Positions 42,302 through 51,476 of a stretch of DNA of 64,000 nt are shown one piece after another. The notes under the pieces were generated by a model, which ran no database searches, was not told the DNA's origin, and saw only the letters and a list, made by a program, of their open reading frames with translations. Source of the stretch: Desulfovibrio sp. JY. GTDB taxonomy: Bacteria > Desulfobacterota > Desulfovibrionia > Desulfovibrionales > Desulfovibrionaceae. Position 1 is the first letter of the stretch; the number at the start of each line of letters is the position of its first letter. The stretch lies in contig CP082962.1 in NCBI GenBank assembly GCA_021730285.1, forward strand, positions 3,543,501 to 3,607,500, read 5' to 3'. Position numbers and translations under genes: made by a program.

Positions 42302-42430
42302 GGGCGGCTCCTTTTTTGTCTGGCGCAATCAGGGAAAACAACCTAACCAAATCATAAGCTTTGTTCAATTGATGCCCGGAAACGCCACCGGCGTGCAACG
42401 GATATCTTTTCAAGGCGATAAGAAGGCGTG

Positions 42431-44083
42431 ATGCAACAAGACATGGTGTGCGAGGCGGTTTTCGATCCGGCAGACGACGGCGGGCGTGGCACGCGGCTGG
42501 ATGTCTTCTGGAGTGTCCGGCTGGCCGGGGAGGACGTCACCCGGGCACGGGTGCGCGCGGCCATCGAGGACGGGCAGGCGAGCGTGGACGGCGCGCCCTG
42601 CCGCAAGCCCGGAACCAAGCTTCGCGGCGGTGAGGCGCTGACCCTGCGCCTGCCGAAGCTCTCCAGCGAGACCGGGGCCGAGGCCGGGGCGCTGACGCTG
42701 CTTCATGCCGACGCGGACGTGATCGTGCTGGACAAACCGGCCGGGCTCACCGTGCATCCGGCTCCGGGGCTGCCCGAGGGGACGCTGGTCAACCGGCTCT
42801 TGTACCGTTTCCCGCAGCTTCACGACATGGCCGGTGAGCGGCCGGGCATCGTCCACCGTCTGGACAAGGACACGAGCGGCCTGTTGCTGGTCGCCCTGAC
42901 CGAAGCCGCCAGGCAGGCCCTGGCCGCCGATTTCGCGGCGAGAAGGGTGCGCAAGACCTATCTGGCCCTGGTGCACGGCCGGCCCGACCGTGACGGCGGG
43001 GACATCCGCCTGCCGATCGGCCGCGACCCCAGGAATCGGACCAAAATGGCGGTGGCGGCCAAAGGCGGGCGCGAGGCCGCAACCCGCTGGCGGCTGGTCT
43101 GGAGTGCGCCGGACGATGCGGCCAGCCTTTTGGAAGTGGACATTTTCACCGGCCGCACCCACCAGATCCGGGTGCATCTGGCGGCCATCGGCCATCCCAT
43201 CGTCGGGGATGCGGTCTACGGCGCACTGCAACATACCGCCTGGAAACGCCGGCCAGGTGTCCTGGCCCGGCTGGCCACGCGCCAGATGCTTCACGCCTGG
43301 AAGCTGTCCTTTGTCCATCCGGGTACTGGGGAGACGTGCTCCTACCGTTGCCCGCCGCCCCCGGATTTCTGGCGGCTGGTGCTGCTCCTTGGCCGTCGCT
43401 GCCAACGGGTGGGGCTGGTCGGCATGCCGGGCTGCGGCAAGTCGGCCTTGCTCAAGGTCTTTGAGGCGGCCGGCTCTCCGGTCTTTTCCGCCGATGCGGC
43501 CGTGGGCAGGCTCTATGCCCCGGGAGGCGGCGGGGCGCACATGCTGGCCGGGCGCTTCGGAGAGAAGGCGCTCGGACCGGACGGCTCCGTCGACAAGGCC
43601 TGGTTGCTTACGCGGATGCTCGAAAACGAATCCTTCCGGCGGGAGGTCATGGAACTGGTGCATCCGCTGGTTCGGGCGGAACTGGATGCTTTCCTGCAAG
43701 CGAACGTCACGGCCCGGGTAGCCTTTGCCGAGGTGCCGCTGCTTTTCGAATCGGGTTGGCCTTGGCAGGACGTTGCGGATATGGTTGTCGGAGTTCGTTG
43801 TTCCTTGGAGACGCGCCGGGAGCGCCTCACCGGCGGGCGTGGCTGGGACGGGGATCTGGCCGACCGCATGGACGGCTGGCAGTGGCCCGAGGCGGCCAAG
43901 CTGGCCAAATGCCGGTTCGTGGTGGACAATGACGGCGACCTGGACAGTTTGACGCGCCAGGGACGGGACGTCCTGGACGGACTGGCCGCGTTGCGCCGCC
44001 GGGAGGCGTTTGACCGCCTGCAATGGTTGCGGGATCGGGGTTATGCGCCGGGGCCGCTGCCCGCCACCGGAGGCGGGCAATGA
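42431..44083 (+). CDS. RluD-type pseudouridine synthase fused to dephospho-CoA kinase
   Basis: 550 residues, two enzymes in one chain. Residues 1-~320: S4 RNA-binding domain, then the synthase with LDKPAGLTVHP and the catalytic Asp in VHRLDKDTSGL near 145, ending in HPFTG-like FTGRTHQIRVHL; it would modify 23S rRNA. Residues ~330-550: CoaE with P-loop GMPGCGKS near 333-340, the SADAAVGRLY acceptor motif, and lid region TGGRGWDGDLADRM, which phosphorylates dephospho-CoA to CoA. No separate coaE is seen in the window. ATG 42431 is preferred over the GTG three bases earlier, with GAAGG upstream. Linked function is not obvious. Confidence 0.88.
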   Translation: MQQDMVCEAVFDPADDGGRGTRLDVFWSVRLAGEDVTRARVRAAIEDGQASVDGAPCRKPGTKLRGGEALTLRLPKLSSETGAEAGALTLLHADADVIVLDKPAGLTVHPAPGLPEGTLVNRLLYRFPQLHDMAGERPGIVHRLDKDTSGLLLVALTEAARQALAADFAARRVRKTYLALVHGRPDRDGGDIRLPIGRDPRNRTKMAVAAKGGREAATRWRLVWSAPDDAASLLEVDIFTGRTHQIRVHLAAIGHPIVGDAVYGALQHTAWKRRPGVLARLATRQMLHAWKLSFVHPGTGETCSYRCPPPPDFWRLVLLLGRRCQRVGLVGMPGCGKSALLKVFEAAGSPVFSADAAVGRLYAPGGGGAHMLAGRFGEKALGPDGSVDKAWLLTRMLENESFRREVMELVHPLVRAELDAFLQANVTARVAFAEVPLLFESGWPWQDVADMVVGVRCSLETRRERLTGGRGWDGDLADRMDGWQWPEAAKLAKCRFVVDNDGDLDSLTRQGRDVLDGLAALRRREAFDRLQWLRDRGYAPGPLPATGGGQ

Positions 44084-44084
44084 A

Positions 44085-44810
44085 ATGATACCGCTTCGCG
44101 ACAATGTGCCAAGTTCCCGCCGGCCACTCGTGACCTGGACGATCATTGCCCTGTGCGCGCTGCTTTTTTTCTTCGAGCAACTGCTGCCGAATCGTGCCCT
44201 GTTCGAATTTTTGTATATCTATGGCGTGGTCCCGGCCCGCTACACCGATCCGGCCTATGCCGCCATCATGGGCTATCCCAGGGGCGGCTACGAATCCATG
44301 GTCACCTACATGTTTCTGCACGGCGGCTGGCTGCATTTTCTGCTCAACATGTGGGTGCTGTGGATATTCGCCGACAATGTGGAGGAGGCGCTCGGGCCGT
44401 TGCGGTTTGCCCTGTTCTACCTGGCCTGCGGCGTGATCGCCGTCTGCACCCACATTCTTTTCAACTGGAACGCCACCATGCCGGTGATCGGGGCCTCCGG
44501 GGCCATCGCCGGGGTGATGGGGGCCTATTTCCGCCTGTTTCCCCGGGCCAGGGTGGTGACGCTCATTCCGATTTTCATCTTTCCCTGGATCATCGAACTC
44601 CCGGCCGTGGTCTTTCTGGGCATCTGGTTTTTCCTGCAACTGCTTTCCGGCGTCAGTGGCTCGGTCAGCGGCAGCGGGGCCAGCAGCGTCGCCTTCTGGG
44701 CCCATGCCGGCGGTTTCGTCGCCGGGCTCGGGCTTGTGCGCCTCATTTTGCCGCACGGCTGCGAGTTCTGCTTCGATCCCCGCAACCGGCGCTACGATCG
44801 GGAAGGATAG
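44085..44810 (+). CDS. Rhomboid family intramembrane serine protease
   Basis: 241 residues with six or seven membrane helices. HGGWLHFLLNMWVLWIF is the conserved helix after L1, GASGAIAGVMGAYF holds the catalytic serine near 140 and FWAHAGGFVAG the catalytic histidine near 206. Such proteases cut membrane proteins within the bilayer. GGAGG lies 10 bases before the ATG, and the gene starts one base after the previous stop, so it is co-transcribed with the fusion gene. The C-terminus ends in Cys/Arg-rich cytoplasmic residues. Confidence 0.93.
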   Translation: MIPLRDNVPSSRRPLVTWTIIALCALLFFFEQLLPNRALFEFLYIYGVVPARYTDPAYAAIMGYPRGGYESMVTYMFLHGGWLHFLLNMWVLWIFADNVEEALGPLRFALFYLACGVIAVCTHILFNWNATMPVIGASGAIAGVMGAYFRLFPRARVVTLIPIFIFPWIIELPAVVFLGIWFFLQLLSGVSGSVSGSGASSVAFWAHAGGFVAGLGLVRLILPHGCEFCFDPRNRRYDREG

Positions 44811-44838: not shown

Positions 44839-45492
44839 TCACAAGGCCTGGGCCACCCAGACGACGCGCCCTACGATGCGGGCATGCCCGGTATCTCCGA
44901 TCACCGCTTCCGCAAGCGCGATCCCTCTGTCCTCGTCCGTCGTTTCCCTGTCGTCGTCTCCTCCGCAGGGCAGCATGCGTACCACCAACCCCTTGCCCAG
45001 GATATCCAGGGCGAACGGGGCGGTTTTTTCCCGCGTCTGCCGGGCGGCGGCGTTTGGCCCATCCCTCGCGTCCCGGCAGGTGTCCACCACCAGATAGGCC
45101 CCTTTGTGGATGCGCGGTTCCAGGGCCGGACTGTCCATGCGGACCACGAACCGGCTCGGACCGACGATACGGGGAGCCAGGGCGATGCGTTCGATCTCGC
45201 GTAACTGCCAGTGGCCCGTACGGGGATGGGTGACGGCCATGGCGAAAACCGGGGTCATGGCCACCGGACAATCGGGCGGGGCGTCCCGGCCCTTGCCCTG
45301 GAAGACCCAGTCCGGATCGAGATCGTATTCGCGGCAATGGCGCATGATCCATGAACTGAAGGCGGCCGCATCCATTTCGGTCGTCAAGGCGCTCGTGATA
45401 AGGCCCAGGCGGTTGGCACCGTCGTTGGCCCCCCTGGCGCAAAGGGCTGTCTTCAATCGGGCAAGAATGGCGTCACGTGCTTGTTGTCCCAT
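44839..45492 (-). CDS. LexA/CI-like repressor 1 (divergent HTH, no catalytic dyad)
   Basis: 217 residues, first of three paralogues in the 5' to 3' shared direction. The N-terminal ~75 residues align with the CI-type helix-turn-helix of the other two only weakly (MRHCREYDLDPDWVFQGK matches their end of domain). The C-terminal S24-like fold reads VVRMDSPALEPRIHKGAYLVVD, so Ala stands where LexA has the nucleophile Ser, and the later Lys is replaced (LVVRML). It cannot cleave itself and may not bind the same DNA. The start at 45492 follows a G-rich site; an AT-rich promoter region lies upstream. The closest plausible function is a ligand- or partner-controlled repressor. Confidence 0.75.
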   Translation of the reverse strand: MGQQARDAILARLKTALCARGANDGANRLGLITSALTTEMDAAAFSSWIMRHCREYDLDPDWVFQGKGRDAPPDCPVAMTPVFAMAVTHPRTGHWQLREIERIALAPRIVGPSRFVVRMDSPALEPRIHKGAYLVVDTCRDARDGPNAAARQTREKTAPFALDILGKGLVVRMLPCGGDDDRETTDEDRGIALAEAVIGDTGHARIVGRVVWVAQAL

Positions 45493-45613
45493 GTGAACCC
45501 CCGGTTTCCCACACAATAAGCACGAATGATTTATATGTAAATATATTTAATGCTATACTTTAATAAACATTCCTTTTGGATGCTCTGTAACGGGCCGCCC
45601 AGGCGTGCAACAC
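45493..45613. other. AT-rich promoter region of repressor 1
   Basis: From 45515 to 45580 the sequence is far more AT-rich than its surroundings, with an ATTTATATGTAAAT inverted repeat at 45529-45542 and several TATA-like hexamers on the minus strand (TATAAA, TATAGC). A promoter and operator for repressor 1 probably lie here, but no single -35/-10 pair is convincing. Confidence 0.4.
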
Positions 45614-45644
45614 AAAAAAAAGCCGTCTCCACCCAGGATACGGC
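45614..45644 (-). terminator. Terminator behind repressor 2
   Basis: On the minus strand GCCGT...ACGGC (5-bp stem, 13-base loop) is followed by at least eight T. It begins about 40 bases after the repressor 2 stop. Confidence 0.6.
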
Positions 45645-45686
45645 AATGCGATGATGGGTGCGACAGAAACGGAATGGAAAGAGGGA

Positions 45687-46367
45687 TCAGATTTCCTGGA
45701 TGACCCAGATCGCCTTGCCGACGGGGGTGATTCCCGGAGTTTCCAGGGGAAGATGCTGCGCCGGATGGGAGGGATTGTCAGCGAGCAGGGAGAGTCGCTT
45801 GGCTTCGAGATCGCGCACGACGCGTTTGATGACCAGTCCTTCGCCGGGAAAGTCGAGGGCATAAATTTCGCCGGTGCGCATACGCACGACGTCGCAATCG
45901 ATGCCTACATAGGCGCCGTGGCGGATGACCGGCTCCATGCCGGCGTTGTCCATTTTGACCACGAGCAAGTTCGGCCGCGACAGCGACTCGATAAGCGGGA
46001 TGCTTTCCAGGCGTTCCCGCTGCCAAACCCCGGTTTCGGGATCGGTGCGGGCCATGGCATACACGGTCGTGCGTGCGGGTGTGGCCGCGTATTCGTGGGC
46101 GGTTTCGCGCACGCCAGACACGCCTTCGGACATGGCAAAGCCCTCTCGCCTCGAAGCGGGTTCCTGCCCGTATAAAATCCAGTCCGGCTCCAGGCCGCAG
46201 GCCCGGTACAGCGTGATGAGCCAGCCATCGGGGATGGTATTTTTCTTTTTGGCGTCGGAAATGCTGGATTGCTTGATGCCGAGCAGAGCTGCGATCTCCG
46301 TCTGGGTCCGGGTCTTCGTGGCCGCCTGGATCCTGGCATAAGCGTCTTCGAAGGTGTCGGGCTTCAC
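45687..46367 (-). CDS. LexA/CI-like repressor 2 (Ser to Gly)
   Basis: 226 residues. A CI-type helix-turn-helix at ~20-50 (RTQTEIAALLGIKQSSISDAKK) is followed by a linker and an S24-like domain. The nucleophile position of LexA (GMSM) is AGM in MDNAGMEPVIRHGAYVGID, so Ser is Gly, while Lys remains in LVIKRVVRD. Self-cleavage is therefore excluded, and release from DNA must work otherwise. The GTG start is chosen because AGGAGG is 6 bases upstream. Its promoter and a 23-bp operator-like palindrome are at 46433-46484, suggesting autoregulation. No phage genes are near, so it is not part of an evident prophage. Confidence 0.82.
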   Translation of the reverse strand: MKPDTFEDAYARIQAATKTRTQTEIAALLGIKQSSISDAKKKNTIPDGWLITLYRACGLEPDWILYGQEPASRREGFAMSEGVSGVRETAHEYAATPARTTVYAMARTDPETGVWQRERLESIPLIESLSRPNLLVVKMDNAGMEPVIRHGAYVGIDCDVVRMRTGEIYALDFPGEGLVIKRVVRDLEAKRLSLLADNPSHPAQHLPLETPGITPVGKAIWVIQEI

Positions 46368-46432
46368 GCAGCCTCCTGCATGGCGGTGTTTTGCATGGCA
46401 GGTTTCATAAAGCAACTTACTGCAAAAAATAA

Positions 46433-46484
46433 TTATGAATCTATAATAGTCATAACTAATACACGATTTCATGGAACGCGTCAA
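46433..46484 (-). promoter_or_regulatory. Promoter and operator-like palindrome of repressor 2
   Basis: On the minus strand TTGACG (46479-46484), 17 bases, TATTAG (46456-46461) form a good sigma70 promoter. Immediately downstream, 46433-46455 is a 23-bp inverted repeat (arms TTATGA/TCATAA, eight of eleven positions paired) that covers the expected start of transcription near 46449. Its position suits a repressor binding site. Confidence 0.6.
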
Positions 46485-46520
46485 CGCGTCGGCGAAATAG
46501 AGAAAATCGCACTCTGGTAG

Positions 46521-46578
46521 GAAAAAAACGACCCGGCGGGCGAGCCGGGAACAGGCGTAACGCTGTGCTGTTCCCGGC
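46521..46578 (-). terminator. Terminator behind repressor 3
   Basis: On the minus strand GCCGGGAACAG pairs perfectly with CTGTTCCCGGC (46544-46578) over 13 bases; a second small CCCG/CGGG hairpin and a T7 run follow (A-run 46522-46528 on plus). Confidence 0.75.
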
Positions 46579-46612
46579 GCTGCCGCGGGACGGGCGGCGT
46601 CTTTCGGCGGGG

Positions 46613-47311
46613 CTAGAGTTCCTGGAAAACCCAGGTGACACGGCCGACAACACGCTCGGCTGCGCCGTCGGCGGGAATGCACTGATCGGCATAGGTCTGA
46701 TTTTCCGAGCGCAGAATGAGCCGGCCGTTTTCGGCATCGTGCACAATACGTTTGATGATGAGCCCTTCCATGGGCATATCCAGAGCGTACAGGCCGCCAG
46801 AACGAATGGTCTTGCGGTCCTTGTCGATGCCCACATAGGCTCCACGATGGATGACCGGTTCCATGTCGCTTTCGTCCATGCGCACGATGACCAGGGATGC
46901 TTTATGGAATTGTTCCGGAACGGCCAATGTTTCCGCGCTGGCGACGGTTGCTTCTTCCTGTTCCGGTTCCGGCGTGGACATGGAGGCCACGGGCATCTGG
47001 TAATACTTGGGCTTGCGGCCGTAGCTGTCGCCGGATTCCCGCACATGCAGGGCGCCGCCGCGCTTATCACCCAGAAATTGCGGCTGTTCTCCGTCGATGA
47101 TCCAGTTGGGATTGAGGTTGTATATCTGGTACAGCTTGATCAGCCAGCTATCCGGAATGGATTGACGGCGCTTGGCGTCGGAAATGCTGGACTGACGGAT
47201 ATCGAGCATCTTGGCGATCTCCACCTGGGTGCGCATGCCCGTCGCCTGCTTGATCCGGTCGAATGCGTCGTCAAAGCGGTTGATGGTTTCCTGAGGGGTC
47301 CCTTCGTTCAT
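46613..47311 (-). CDS. LexA/CI-like repressor 3 (Ser to Asp)
   Basis: 232 residues. CI-type helix-turn-helix at ~23-52 (RTQVEIAKMLDIRQSSISDAKR), a Glu-rich linker, then an S24-like domain with VRMDESDMEPVIHRGAYVGID. Asp occupies the nucleophile position, with a Ser one residue earlier; Lys remains in LIIKRIVHD. It is the closest relative of repressor 2. GGAGG lies 4 bases before the ATG; a longer frame upstream has no site. A promoter lies ~250 bases upstream, giving a long leader with a hairpin at 47342-47396. Own terminator follows. Confidence 0.82.
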   Translation of the reverse strand: MNEGTPQETINRFDDAFDRIKQATGMRTQVEIAKMLDIRQSSISDAKRRQSIPDSWLIKLYQIYNLNPNWIIDGEQPQFLGDKRGGALHVRESGDSYGRKPKYYQMPVASMSTPEPEQEEATVASAETLAVPEQFHKASLVIVRMDESDMEPVIHRGAYVGIDKDRKTIRSGGLYALDMPMEGLIIKRIVHDAENGRLILRSENQTYADQCIPADGAAERVVGRVTWVFQEL

Positions 47312-47567: not shown

Positions 47568-47596
47568 ATTATGAATGCTGCGAAAGTATAAGTCAA
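47568..47596 (-). promoter_or_regulatory. Promoter directed toward repressor 3
   Basis: On the minus strand TTGACT (47591-47596), a 17-base spacer, and CATAAT (47568-47573) give the best sigma70 match in the window. Transcription would start near 47561, leaving a ~250-base leader before repressor 3. A 39-codon frame in that leader (47411-47530) has no ribosome site and is not annotated. Confidence 0.65.
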
Positions 47597-48162: not shown

Positions 48163-50505
48163 TCACCGTTTTGTCACGAAAACTCCGTAGAAAGCCTGCC
48201 CCAGGCTGATGCCGCCGTCGTTGGACGGGACCCTTCTCTGGCTGAGCGGGGTCAGGCCGCGTTCCCGCAGGGCTGGCGGCAGGAGTGTCGCAATCGTCCG
48301 ATTTTGCAGCACACCACCTGAAAGCGCCACCCGGGCGATGCCTGTGCGTGTGGCCATTTCTCCGGCCAGGGCGGCCAGACCCGCAACAAGACCAAGATGG
48401 AACCGACGGGCGATGCGGCCTGCCGATTCCCCTCGCGCCGCGTCCGTTGCCGCCTGCCGGAACAGCTCCAGCGTTTCCAACCGCGCCGGGCTTTCGGACA
48501 GGCCGACGGGACAGGCATACGGCCGCGCTTCCGACATGTCCTGGGCACGCTCCAGGAGGATGGCCGCTTGTCCCTCGTAGTCGATGGCCTGGCACACGCC
48601 TATGGCCGCCGCCACCGCGTCGAAGAGCCTGCCGCAGCTTGTGGTCACCGGACAGTTGAGTCCCTTTTCCAGCATGGTCCCGACAAGGCGCGTGGCGCTT
48701 TCCCGGCCCGTGATCCAGGGCCACGGCAGGCCGTCACCCGGCTCCTTGTCGCCCAAAAGAAAATGGCAGGCCTGGGCGATGCGCCAGGGTTCACGCACGG
48801 CCGCATCCCCGCCGGGCAGGCGCATGGGCGCGAAATGTCCCAACCGCTTATAGGTTCCCGCGCCCGGATCGACGAGCAGGCATTCCCCGCCCCAAAGCGT
48901 GCCGTCCTCGCCAAGGCCCGTGCCGTCCAGGGCCAGCCCCAAGACCGGCTCCATGAGGCCATGCTCGGCCAACACGGCGTAGATGTGGGCGACATGGTGC
49001 TGCAGGCGCAGCACCGGCACGGCGTTTTGTTCCAGGGCGAAGCGGGTGGAGGGGTAATCCGGGTGCAGATCGGCCACCAGCGCCTCGGGCCGCACCTTGA
49101 GCACGCCTTGCAGATGGTCCAGGATCTCCTGGTAGAATCCGAAGGCTTCCAGGGATTCCAGGTCGCCGATGTGCTGGCTGACAAAGGCCTGGTTGCCCTT
49201 GGTCAGGCACAGCGTGGCCTTGAGCATGGGCCCCAGCCCGGCGACCGGCGGCCCGGACACGGGCAGGATCACCGGCGTTGGCACGTAGCCCCTGGCCCGA
49301 CGCAGAAACATGTGCCGTGGCGTATGCCCGCCGTCCGGGGCGACATCGGCTTCCAGGGGGCGGACCACGGAATCGTCGGTGCGGATCAGGATGTCCCGGT
49401 TATGTAGGAGAAAAATGTCGGCGATGGCGGCAAGCCGGGCGAGCGCCTCGCGGTTGCCCAGGCTGATGGGCTCGCCGCCGGCATTGCCCGAAGTCGCAAC
49501 CAGCGCCGCCGGCCGGTCCCCGCCGATGGCCGCGGCATAGTCGCCAAGCAGGATGTGGTGCAGGGGCGTGTAGGGGAGCATGATGCCGATTTCGGTGGTA
49601 TCCGGCGCGATGGCCGGCGACAGGCCGCTCTCCGGGCGCACGGGTACGAGGGTGATGGGCCGCGCCGTGCCGGTCAGCAGTTCTTCGGCGCGCGGCCCTA
49701 CCGCGCCGATACGCTTGGCCGCGTCGAGGTGCGGCACCATGACCGCCAGGGCCTTGGACGGCCGGTGTTTGCGACGGCGCAGCTCCCGCACGGCCGCGTC
49801 GTTGGTCGCGTCGCATAGCAGATGGAAGCCGCCGAGTCCCTTGACCGCCGCGATGGCCCCGTCCGCCAGGGCCCGGGCAAGACGCCTGATAGCCGCATCG
49901 CCCTCGGCCAGGCGCGTTCCCGAGGCGTCCGTCAGCCAGACCTTCGGCCCGCATACCGGGCAGGCGTTGGGCTGGGCATGGAACCGGCGGTCGGCCGGAT
50001 CGGCGTATTCGGCGGCGCAGTCCGGGCACAGCGGGAAACAGGCCATGGAGGTGGTTTCCCGGTCGTAGGGCACGCTGCGGGTGATGGTGTAGCGTGGCCC
50101 GCAGTTGGTGCAGTTGGTGAAGGGATAGCGGAAACGCCTATTGGCCGGATCGGTCATGTCGGCCAGGCAGTCGGGGCAGGTGGCCACGTCCGGGCTGATA
50201 AGCACCTCATGGCCGCTGCCGGGAGCGCTTTTGTCGATGCGAAACGCCGTCTCGCCGCTTGGTTCGGCCGGGGTTTGGTCATGATGAAGGATGCGGGCCA
50301 GGGGCGGAATCTCAGCCGGCAGGCGGCGGCCGAAAGCGGCGACCGCGTCCGTCGTGCCCTCGACCTCGATAACCACGCCCTCGGGCGTGTTCTGGACGAA
50401 TCCCCCGAGTTCAAGCTCCCGGGCCAGCCTGTAGACGAATGGGCGAAATCCCACACCCTGGACCTGGCCGGCCACAAGGTGGCGGCAGCGTGCGCGTATT
50501 GGCAT
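48163..50505 (-). CDS. hypF: Carbamoyltransferase HypF (NiFe hydrogenase maturation)
   Basis: 780 residues, standard architecture: acylphosphatase domain (AGQVQGVGFRPFVYRLA near 10), two zinc fingers (CPDCLAD...CTNCGPRY near 110-140 and CPLC...CPVCG near 160-190), a YrdC-like ATP/carbamoyl domain (~205-390), and a Kae1-like domain with LQHHVAHIYAVL near 487. It makes carbamoyl-AMP and passes the carbamoyl to HypE, starting the cyanide ligand of the NiFe centre. No other hyp gene is in the window, so it is an orphan here. The start is set by homology (MPIRARCRHLVAG); no strong ribosome site is seen. Confidence 0.95.
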   Translation of the reverse strand: MPIRARCRHLVAGQVQGVGFRPFVYRLARELELGGFVQNTPEGVVIEVEGTTDAVAAFGRRLPAEIPPLARILHHDQTPAEPSGETAFRIDKSAPGSGHEVLISPDVATCPDCLADMTDPANRRFRYPFTNCTNCGPRYTITRSVPYDRETTSMACFPLCPDCAAEYADPADRRFHAQPNACPVCGPKVWLTDASGTRLAEGDAAIRRLARALADGAIAAVKGLGGFHLLCDATNDAAVRELRRRKHRPSKALAVMVPHLDAAKRIGAVGPRAEELLTGTARPITLVPVRPESGLSPAIAPDTTEIGIMLPYTPLHHILLGDYAAAIGGDRPAALVATSGNAGGEPISLGNREALARLAAIADIFLLHNRDILIRTDDSVVRPLEADVAPDGGHTPRHMFLRRARGYVPTPVILPVSGPPVAGLGPMLKATLCLTKGNQAFVSQHIGDLESLEAFGFYQEILDHLQGVLKVRPEALVADLHPDYPSTRFALEQNAVPVLRLQHHVAHIYAVLAEHGLMEPVLGLALDGTGLGEDGTLWGGECLLVDPGAGTYKRLGHFAPMRLPGGDAAVREPWRIAQACHFLLGDKEPGDGLPWPWITGRESATRLVGTMLEKGLNCPVTTSCGRLFDAVAAAIGVCQAIDYEGQAAILLERAQDMSEARPYACPVGLSESPARLETLELFRQAATDAARGESAGRIARRFHLGLVAGLAALAGEMATRTGIARVALSGGVLQNRTIATLLPPALRERGLTPLSQRRVPSNDGGISLGQAFYGVFVTKR

Positions 50506-50537
50506 GGGGGGAGAAGGTAGCCGTCTTTGACCGCGTG

Positions 50538-51476
50538 TCAACGGGACCTGGGGGTACGGCCAAATGTGAGCATAAGGCTGCGCAGCCGGCCTGTGACGAA
50601 ACGTTTGGGCTCGAAGCAAAGCGGCGAAAGCGCGGCGGGGAGCTCGAATCCGGCGATATCGAAGGCGTCCGGCCGCTCCATGGGGAAAACGAGGTCCTCG
50701 GCCTTTGCTCCCGGAAGTCCCAGGGCGTTGGCCTGTCCCCAGAGCGGAATGTCCCCTGGCGCAAGCCCGAACCGGGTGTAGATCGTCGTATCCAGGGCCA
50801 CCGGATTGGCCGCCGCCGCCAGCATCCCCAAAGGAAACGCCTCGCCGTAGGCCGGGCCGTGCTTGTGCATGGCCGTGATGCCGTCCAAAAGCGAGGTCGT
50901 TGGCGGCAAGGCGGCCAGGACGTCCAGGATCATCCGGGCAAACCGGCCCCTATCCCTGCCCAGGCGCTGGTGGGCCAGCGATTTGCGAAAACCGCAGACG
51001 CAGCCGAAGAAATTTTTGACCGCCAGCGTCAACCCCATCTGATCGTGGCATTTGAACCGGGCCACGCTCACGATGTGGTCCGTCTCCAGGGCCAGCCGGG
51101 AAATGCCGATGCTTCCCCCATGCCTCAGCCGCACCTGACGCGGTTCGTCCAGGCTGGCCACCGTCACGGGCAGACCGGCAAGCGCCTCGGTCAGCCCCGA
51201 CAGCCTAGCCATGATGCGCCCGGTGCCGAAGGCCGGGGAATCGGCCACGGTCACGATCGCCCCCAGCTCCAGCAGATGCCGGCAGACCGCCCGCACCACG
51301 CGCGGCTCGGAACAGGACAAGGCCATATTGCGGGGAGCCACGAGGTTGGGCTTGACCAGCACCGTGGCGCCGCGTCCGACCGGGCACCCGGTGGACGTCA
51401 GCAGTTCGGCCACGACAGCATCCAGCTCTGGCGCGTCGTAGCCGGCGAAGCGGCGTAGGAAAACGGCATGCGGCAT
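50538..51476 (-). CDS. DUF362 domain protein
   Basis: 312 residues. TVLVKPNLVAP near residue 38 opens the DUF362 domain, TVADSPAFGTGRIM follows near 80, and FKCHDQMGLTLAVKNFFGCVCGFRK near 155-179 is the conserved central block of the family, often linked to iron-sulfur proteins; no ferredoxin motif is fused here. Function is unknown. ATG 51476 is chosen since GGAGG lies 11 bases upstream; an in-frame ATG at 51494 is an alternative. Frames further upstream run through the repeat mosaic and are rejected. Confidence 0.8.
   Translation of the reverse strand: MPHAVFLRRFAGYDAPELDAVVAELLTSTGCPVGRGATVLVKPNLVAPRNMALSCSEPRVVRAVCRHLLELGAIVTVADSPAFGTGRIMARLSGLTEALAGLPVTVASLDEPRQVRLRHGGSIGISRLALETDHIVSVARFKCHDQMGLTLAVKNFFGCVCGFRKSLAHQRLGRDRGRFARMILDVLAALPPTTSLLDGITAMHKHGPAYGEAFPLGMLAAAANPVALDTTIYTRFGLAPGDIPLWGQANALGLPGAKAEDLVFPMERPDAFDIAGFELPAALSPLCFEPKRFVTGRLRSLMLTFGRTPRSR

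Follow-up and report, generated by a model that had tools for sequence, protein, structure and literature searches.

Three tandem S24-fold proteins of Desulfovibrio sp. JY and a CI-like regulator family mostly lacking the parts for self-cleavage

The window analyzed here is a stretch of 64,000 nucleotides from the genome of Desulfovibrio sp. JY, which consists of one contig of 4,686,982 bases. Three tandem genes, called P3, P2, and P1 in their order on the minus strand, were read in an earlier note as LexA/CI-like repressors that all lack the catalytic serine. We find that the trio is a local amplification of a widespread CI-like regulator family that is mostly without the parts for self-cleavage. 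Our overall reading, held with moderate confidence, is that P2 and P3 are non-cleavable repressors and that P1-like proteins are dimer partners tuning P2 and P3.

Fold and active site of the trio

P2 and P3, which share 43% identity, combine a helix-turn-helix (HTH) domain of the Phage_CI_repr type (PF07022; 31.8 bits in P2 and 27.6 bits in P3 against a Pfam cut-off of 22) with a domain that passes the Peptidase_S24 cut-off. P1 gives no PF07022 match at E 1 and only a sub-threshold S24 match (E 0.0079). None of the three matches a LexA model, either at E 0.1 in NCBIfam (TIGR00498) or at E 1 in Pfam (PF01726). The predicted structure of P3 (predicted local distance difference test score, pLDDT, 88.2; predicted template modeling score, pTM, 0.56) consists of an HTH part and an S24 fold, and its best Foldseek match is phage 186 CI (E 6.9e-10), followed by LexA and lambda CI. 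When a profile of 40 family sequences was searched against the PDB at E 0.01, 186 CI was the sole match (E 2e-4), via the HTH half. The S24 domain of P3 superimposes on Thermotoga LexA (PDB 3k2z) with Z 15.4 over 122 residues at 2.8 Å, and the P1 model matches LexA with Z 9.9 over 110 residues at 3.5 Å. The S24-like fold that the earlier note ascribed to all three is thus retained, in P3 and P1 by the structural match to LexA and in P2 and P3 by Pfam.

The alignment is free of gaps near the nucleophile position, which is occupied by Ala in P1 (MDSP-A-LEP), Gly in P2 (MDNA-G-MEP), and Asp in P3 (MDES-D-MEP), in agreement with the earlier assignment. The position of the catalytic lysine is Arg172 in P1 (LVV-R), so that the proposed loss there is also borne out, and Lys in P2 (LVI-K) and P3 (LII-K). 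The Ala-Gly (or Cys-Gly) scissile bond is gone in all three proteins, the aligned place reading M-AV in P1, M-AR in P2, and M-ST in P3; the linker alignment at this column is looser than that of the active site. The known Ser-Lys route is therefore closed to the trio and no other conserved serine stands in, which accords with the earlier claim that self-cleavage is not possible. Here and below, the genus is taken as Solidesulfovibrio (nine genomes, including that of the window) and the family as Desulfovibrionaceae. Two neighboring serines were considered as substitutes and rejected: of 13 Solidesulfovibrio P3 rows, 5 have Asn in place of the one directly preceding the P3 nucleophile position, and one of four aligned orthologues retains the one located two residues ahead of the P1 nucleophile position.

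The other S24 proteins of the same genome served as a control. Pfam finds S24 domains over the cut-off at 10 places, including P2 and P3, with P1 below it. The remaining eight proteins, two UmuD-like and six longer, all keep the motif G(D/E/N)SM and the lysine.

No HTH was found by Pfam in P1 or in the two P1 orthologues scanned. The helices of the P3 model span residues 12–24, 29–36, 40–49, 54–64, and 68–73, and those of the P1 model (pLDDT 76, built from 13 sequences) span residues 3–19, 23–39, 42–55, and 60–65, so that a single long helix (23–39) stands where P3 has its helix-turn-helix. In a search with VIA-align, the rows for the N-terminal part of P1 list nothing above Z 4.5, which is no proof that this fold is missing. 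Judging from the Pfam result and the model, P1 is probably a non-repressor that has lost its HTH, and two repressors with a companion are likelier than three repressors. The earlier count of three repressors would accordingly hold for P2 and P3, with their Phage_CI_repr HTH, and probably fails for P1.

Distribution and active-site changes in the Desulfovibrionaceae

P3-type matches at E 1e-6 are found in 142 of 149 family genomes and 43 of 44 genera. Because this threshold also admits ordinary CI proteins (the window genome alone has eight matches, canonical CI among them), the matches were recounted at E 1e-25, at which 118 of the 149 genomes, in 41 of 44 genera, remain positive (table counted by hand). 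A profile search at the latter threshold over 81 genomes of the order gave 23 positives, made up of 21 of the 22 family genomes and 2 of the 59 from other families; a few borderline matches may represent other CI proteins. Named contigs were scanned as well, which yielded 126 relatives, of which the best 80 were kept, giving the 78 loci on which all counts of named loci rest. By title, these loci belong to Desulfovibrio and related genera, to Desulfovibrionaceae or Desulfovibrionales, or, less precisely, to delta- or proteobacteria.

Cellular genes adjoin the P3-type gene at many of these loci. An hflC gene lies upstream on the same strand in 42 of the 78 (within −400 to +700 nt of the approximate start), and the gap, itself approximate, is 8–90 nt in 15 of these. 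HflK/HflC was assigned by Pfam Band_7 in one locus and by BLAST elsewhere. Another nine loci have hypF on the P3 strand and no such hflC, hypF being the Solidesulfovibrio setting. The remaining 27 have neither; some of these have hflKC farther off or little upstream sequence, and one (L082) is a P2 locus. Matches in mobile elements are few and weak, amounting to 3 of 50,697 phage records (22–32% identity, with zero matches for P1) and 3 of 72,556 plasmid records (24–25% identity). A prophage remnant in relatives, which the earlier note had named as a possible refutation, is unlikely for P3 and P2, since P3-type genes occur in most genomes of the family and stand beside cellular genes. The distribution across family genomes and named loci identifies the P3 type, as far as sequence can tell, as a widespread chromosomal gene of one family and not a piece of prophage.

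The active site varies widely within this family. We collected 156 sequences, removed one that was too short, and merged those with identical last 150 residues to obtain 138; for the tree, four partial rows were taken out and eight P1/S24-only rows added, giving 142 rows, five of them outgroup (three canonical CI proteins of the window genome and two look-alikes from other loci). The rows are sequences and not species, and include paralogues and near-duplicates of one species. The nucleophile column of the 142 rows contains Ser in 44, Gly in 42, Asn in 18, Ala in 17, Asp in 15, His in 4, Cys in 1, and Thr in 1, and the lysine column contains Arg in 73, Lys in 67, and Ile in 2. Among the 119 HTH-bearing rows, Ser is present in 38, Lys in 56, and both in 20; Ser and Lys occur together with an xGly site in two, one of which has strict Ala-Gly. 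On a FastTree tree calculated with the two columns omitted, at least 19 changes between Ser and non-Ser and 12 between Lys and non-Lys are required; these counts are rough (41 of 139 inner branches open, with a long-branch warning) and do not distinguish gain from loss. Some lineages have fixed their own residue: Asp in P3 of all nine Solidesulfovibrio genomes, His in three rows of a sister genus, and Asn in a 12-row Desulfovibrio clade. The P2 nucleophile, by comparison, is Ser in six Solidesulfovibrio genomes, Gly in two, and Ala in one. The loss of the serine is hence no peculiarity of the trio, being spread over the family while most P2 orthologues of the genus keep the residue.

The DNA-reading helix is nearly constant, the word QSSISDAK being invariant in 40 of 40 aligned rows. 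This constancy is biased and partly built in, because QSSISDAK was one of the two search words in the named scan and the 119 rows were chosen by a helix pattern. The P3-type genes of thirty loci gathered without the helix word also encode this helix, but these loci are the nearest ones. The nucleophile counts are free of this bias, with distant members under-sampled.

At six loci (L022, L024, L028, L030, L045, and L046), the P3-type gene has a second paralogue next to it, in which the linker is short, Ser is kept, and Lys is replaced by Arg. It probably represents another duplication, in or near Fundidesulfovibrio.

HTH-less S24 genes accompany P3 in at least two genera. Presence was judged within the window and 5.5–7 kb stretches of the eight other Solidesulfovibrio genomes, where P3 and P2 occur in all nine, P1 in five, and a separate S24-only gene in six, and within 10–11 kb stretches of three genomes of a second genus, where P3 occurs with an S24-only gene 4–5.3 kb away in all three and P2 in none. 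In one genome (G097), P3 alone lies by hypF, and P2, the S24-only gene, and P1 are on another contig. Three S24-only proteins were scanned by Pfam; S24 was present and an HTH was not found. On the tree, the S24-only proteins of one genus are placed apart from those of the other, which suggests that they arose separately; the branches are long. A mirror image of these genes occurs in the window genome itself (positions 735960–736495; L003, L144), where a P3-like frame of 179 aa carries the HTH (QSSISDAKRR) with no visible S24 motif behind it.

Pairwise ratios of nonsynonymous to synonymous substitution (dN/dS; NG86 method) between the window and its nearest relative, G058, are 0.075 for P3, 0.127 for P2, and 0.187 for P1 (0.16 for the first 75 aa of P1). 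For P1, two further close pairs yield 0.195 and 0.234, and wider comparisons reach 0.47; the range is 0.25–0.49 for the S24-only genes and, where computable, 0.036–0.269 for P3. Wider pairs are near synonymous saturation and their values are hence rough. These ratios indicate that purifying selection acts on P1.

Most of the Desulfovibrionaceae seem to be without a classic LexA. None of 26 genomes (that of the window and others from its genus, family, and order) passes the TIGR00498 cut-off, compared with 6 of 14 controls. The LexA winged helix PF01726 was matched in 17 of 119 family genomes, eight of these with E below 1e-11, and three of the eight in frames of only 88 aa; it was not found in the window genome and five congeners, and 82 further family genomes were also matchless. 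Other kinds of LexA would be missed by these models. UmuD-like proteins persist in the window genome.

Proposed mode of action and rival explanations

P3 and P2 would be chromosomal CI-type repressors that bind DNA via the conserved HTH, and their S24 domain would serve only to form dimers or larger assemblies, without self-cutting. P3 would be an old gene of the Desulfovibrionaceae, inherited mostly vertically, P2 a further copy found in Solidesulfovibrio, and P1 a third copy, with the S24 fold retained and the HTH motif lost. Since the fold is kept but the HTH is lost, P1 would most likely work in trans, pairing with P3 or P2 as a built-in damper or adaptor. The switch would then lie in the level of the partner, in the binding of an antirepressor or ligand, or in regulated proteolysis, and not in RecA-driven autolysis. 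We infer repression by P2 and P3, mixed dimers formed by P1, and any signal to which they respond. A further-reaching proposal, which we put forward tentatively and regard as doubtful, is that a mostly LexA-less family captured a CI-type repressor from a phage, put it to use as a chromosomal regulator that is now widespread, repeatedly dropped self-cleavage, and evolved HTH-less S24 partners that steal dimers in at least two genera, so that heterodimerization replaces proteolysis as the switch.

Several observations weigh against non-cleavable repressors tuned by P1-like partners. The P1 model is of moderate quality, and P1, whose N-terminal part is under selection, could still hold a diverged but working DNA-binding domain. 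P1 is also missing from the examined stretches of four of the nine genus genomes. P3 itself is not universal: 7 of 149 genomes are matchless, and 24 more, including all eight of one genus (g42), have only weak matches, which may be other CI proteins. Because the P2 orthologues of six of the nine genus genomes have both Ser and Lys, self-cutting at an unusual site may persist in some P2 copies. The C-terminal strand, which forms the dimer edge in LexA and UmuD, is kept as GRVVWV.Q; the last 15 residues are, however, no better kept than the active-site loop in the P4–P2 and P4–P3 comparisons, and between P2 and P3 their conservation falls below that of the remaining domain (0.38 versus 0.45), so that the support from this strand for partnering appears weak. 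Furthermore, the palindrome and word searches identified no operator, target, or partner.

Among the rival explanations, an antirepressor switch like those of phage 186 and Gifsy, in which a small unrelated protein encoded elsewhere binds the repressor, is unlikely. The closest structure is 186 CI, and Gifsy repressors are described as uncleaved and inactivated by small antirepressors, with Tum binding the 186 repressor similarly (PMC3121763). None was seen among the five neighbors scanned by Pfam, and no search aimed at Tum-like or other small antirepressors was made. The frequent position of hflC upstream of P3-type genes points to another candidate, regulated proteolysis, since HflKC works together with FtsH: FtsH with HflK-HflC would remove the repressor, an outside protease replacing self-cleavage. 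The 186 CII protein is reported to be degraded by FtsH and RseP (PMC7708051). We nevertheless consider this explanation quite unlikely. In the window genome, the best hflC (2.59 Mb) is 1 Mb from P3 (3.59 Mb), and no family member adjoining hflC is listed by the searches of this genome; Solidesulfovibrio P3 stands by hypF and yet is kept in all nine genomes. The linkage elsewhere may mean only co-transcription, or control of hflKC by P3.

It is improbable that the proteins are merely decaying, domesticated phage repressors that drift without a switch. Free variation of the active-site residues would fit such drift, and so would the faster evolution, at dN/dS of up to about 0.5, seen in P1 and the S24-only genes, but P3-type genes are widespread, with low dN/dS and a nearly constant recognition helix, and P1 remains under purifying selection in all three close pairs. 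To autoproteolysis through another nucleophile or another bond we give hardly any credence. The lysine is kept in P2 and P3, and the Ser-bearing P2 orthologues described above speak for it; against it stand the poor conservation of the neighboring serines, the fixation of Asp in P3 throughout the genus, and the loss of the scissile Gly in the trio.

If the reading with non-cleavable repressors and P1-like partners is true, one family offers a natural series in which self-cutting was lost many times while the DNA-reading helix stayed near fixed, a setting for asking which switch has taken the place of autolysis. The reading would also add a widespread, seemingly unstudied regulator of sulfate reducers, from a group in which LexA goes mostly undetected.

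Gene arrangement and relation to known systems

The trio and its regulatory features are listed in Table 1. The five neighbors scanned by Pfam are hypF, a DUF362 protein, a rhomboid protease, the RluD-CoaE frame, and an alcohol-dehydrogenase-like protein, and for these the earlier statement that phage genes are absent holds. The RluD-CoaE frame is also near the cluster in other Solidesulfovibrio loci, as found by BLAST. Rfam gave nothing in the window at gathering scores, and no tRNA was found in it.

Table 1. Features of the P3-P2-P1 region, in window coordinates
Feature	Positions	Strand	Details
hypF frame	48163–50619	minus	Flanks the trio
P3 promoter-like site	47568–47596	minus	TTGACT-17-CATAAT; scan; both hexamers identical in G058
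Inverted repeat before P3	47342–47396	minus	12 nt, perfect, 31 nt apart; −24.7 kcal/mol, z −3.31, beats 199/200 shuffles
P3	46613–47311	minus	ATG behind GGAGG, 232 aa; Phage_CI_repr HTH + S24 fold; Asp149, Lys187 kept
P3 recognition helix	47165–47194	minus	QSSISDAKRR; model helix 40–49
P3 nucleophile-position codon	46865–46867	minus	Asp149; sequence and alignment
Terminator-like hairpin after P3	46522–46592	minus	With U-run; −38.2 kcal/mol, z −4.65, 0/200 shuffles as good
P2 promoter-like site	46456–46484	minus	TTGACG-17-TATTAG; TTGACG in 8/8 aligned Solidesulfovibrio leaders; absent from promoter scan list
P2	45687–46367	minus	GTG start behind GGAGG, 226 aa; Phage_CI_repr HTH + S24 fold; Gly143, Lys181 kept
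P2 nucleophile-position codon	45939–45941	minus	Gly143; sequence and alignment
Terminator-like hairpin after P2	45608–45650	minus	With U8; −13.2 kcal/mol, z −2.04, 12/200 shuffles as good; absent from terminator scan list
P1 promoter-like site	45513–45541	minus	TTTACA-17-TATTGT; scan; block well kept in G058, second hexamer differs there
P1	44839–45492	minus	ATG, 217 aa; diverged paralogue; Ala123, Lys replaced by Arg172; HTH not detected
P1 nucleophile-position codon	45124–45126	minus	Ala123; sequence and alignment
Rhomboid frame	44010–44810	plus	Flanks the trio
RluD-CoaE frame	42428–44080	plus	Single open frame; RluD-type pseudouridine synthase domain + dephospho-CoA kinase (CoaE)

Every gene of the trio has a promoter-like site ahead of it, and P3 and P2 are each followed by a hairpin with a U-run, so that the three are probably separate transcripts. 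The earlier proposal that each has its own terminator and promoter holds in part: promoter-like sites exceed expectation in the region (6 versus 1.3) and the two hairpins are present, but the terminator scan shows no excess (3 versus 3.3 in shuffles). The inverted repeat before P3, the core of which (ATATTCG/CGAATAT) is also present in G058, may be an operator pair or a leader hairpin. In ten loci of the Humidesulfovibrio kind (e.g. L060–L073), the P3-type gene is preceded by a conserved TTGAC...TAT promoter-like pair and, immediately ahead of its ribosome site, by a conserved GATA element.

Exact-palindrome counts in 134 upstream stretches revealed no clear family operator, and word counts in 84 upstream stretches were dominated by promoter-like words (for example TTGACG and TATAGA) and showed no common operator. 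ATTCGTG occurs 8 times in the window (6.15 expected), TATTCGTGGCG with up to two mismatches 19 times (16.8 expected), and ATATTCGTG 17 times in the genome, compared with 7 for the reversed control. These counts do not define a regulon. The mutual regulatory network suggested earlier is thus unproven, a shared operator not having been found in the palindrome and word searches.

Non-cleavable CI/LexA proteins are already known, namely phage 186 CI, Synechocystis LexA, and Caulobacter RogA. Phage 186 CI (PDB 2fjr), which is described as inactivated by Tum binding (PMC3121763), resembles P3 in its HTH and S24-fold C-terminal domain, as the Foldseek and profile searches indicate. It is, however, a phage immunity repressor, whereas P3-type genes are chromosomal in one family and lie beside cellular genes. 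In the LexA of Synechocystis PCC 6803, the Ala-Gly site and the dyad Ser are reported to be missing (PMC7567884). This protein is chromosomal and lacks both elements as the trio does, but it is a LexA, whereas P2 and P3 have a CI-type HTH and the trio matches no LexA model. Caulobacter RogA, a chromosomal HTH + S24-like repressor described as missing key catalytic residues and repressing gene transfer agent activators (PMC9632790), resembles P2 and P3 in architecture and in the missing residues, the comparison being by description only; the gene transfer agent activators as targets are RogA's own feature. Streptococcus mutans IrvR is a LexA-like regulator that departs from the RecA rule, autocleavage being named in a section heading of the source (PMC7101444). 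It shares a LexA-like character outside the RecA rule with the trio and differs in its autocleavage, which P1–P3 should lack. No literature on this Desulfovibrio S24 regulator was found by title or abstract start in an open-access search, the scope of which mostly excludes subscription papers. Compared with these systems, what looks new is the repeated decay of the active site across one family, together with the HTH-less companions.

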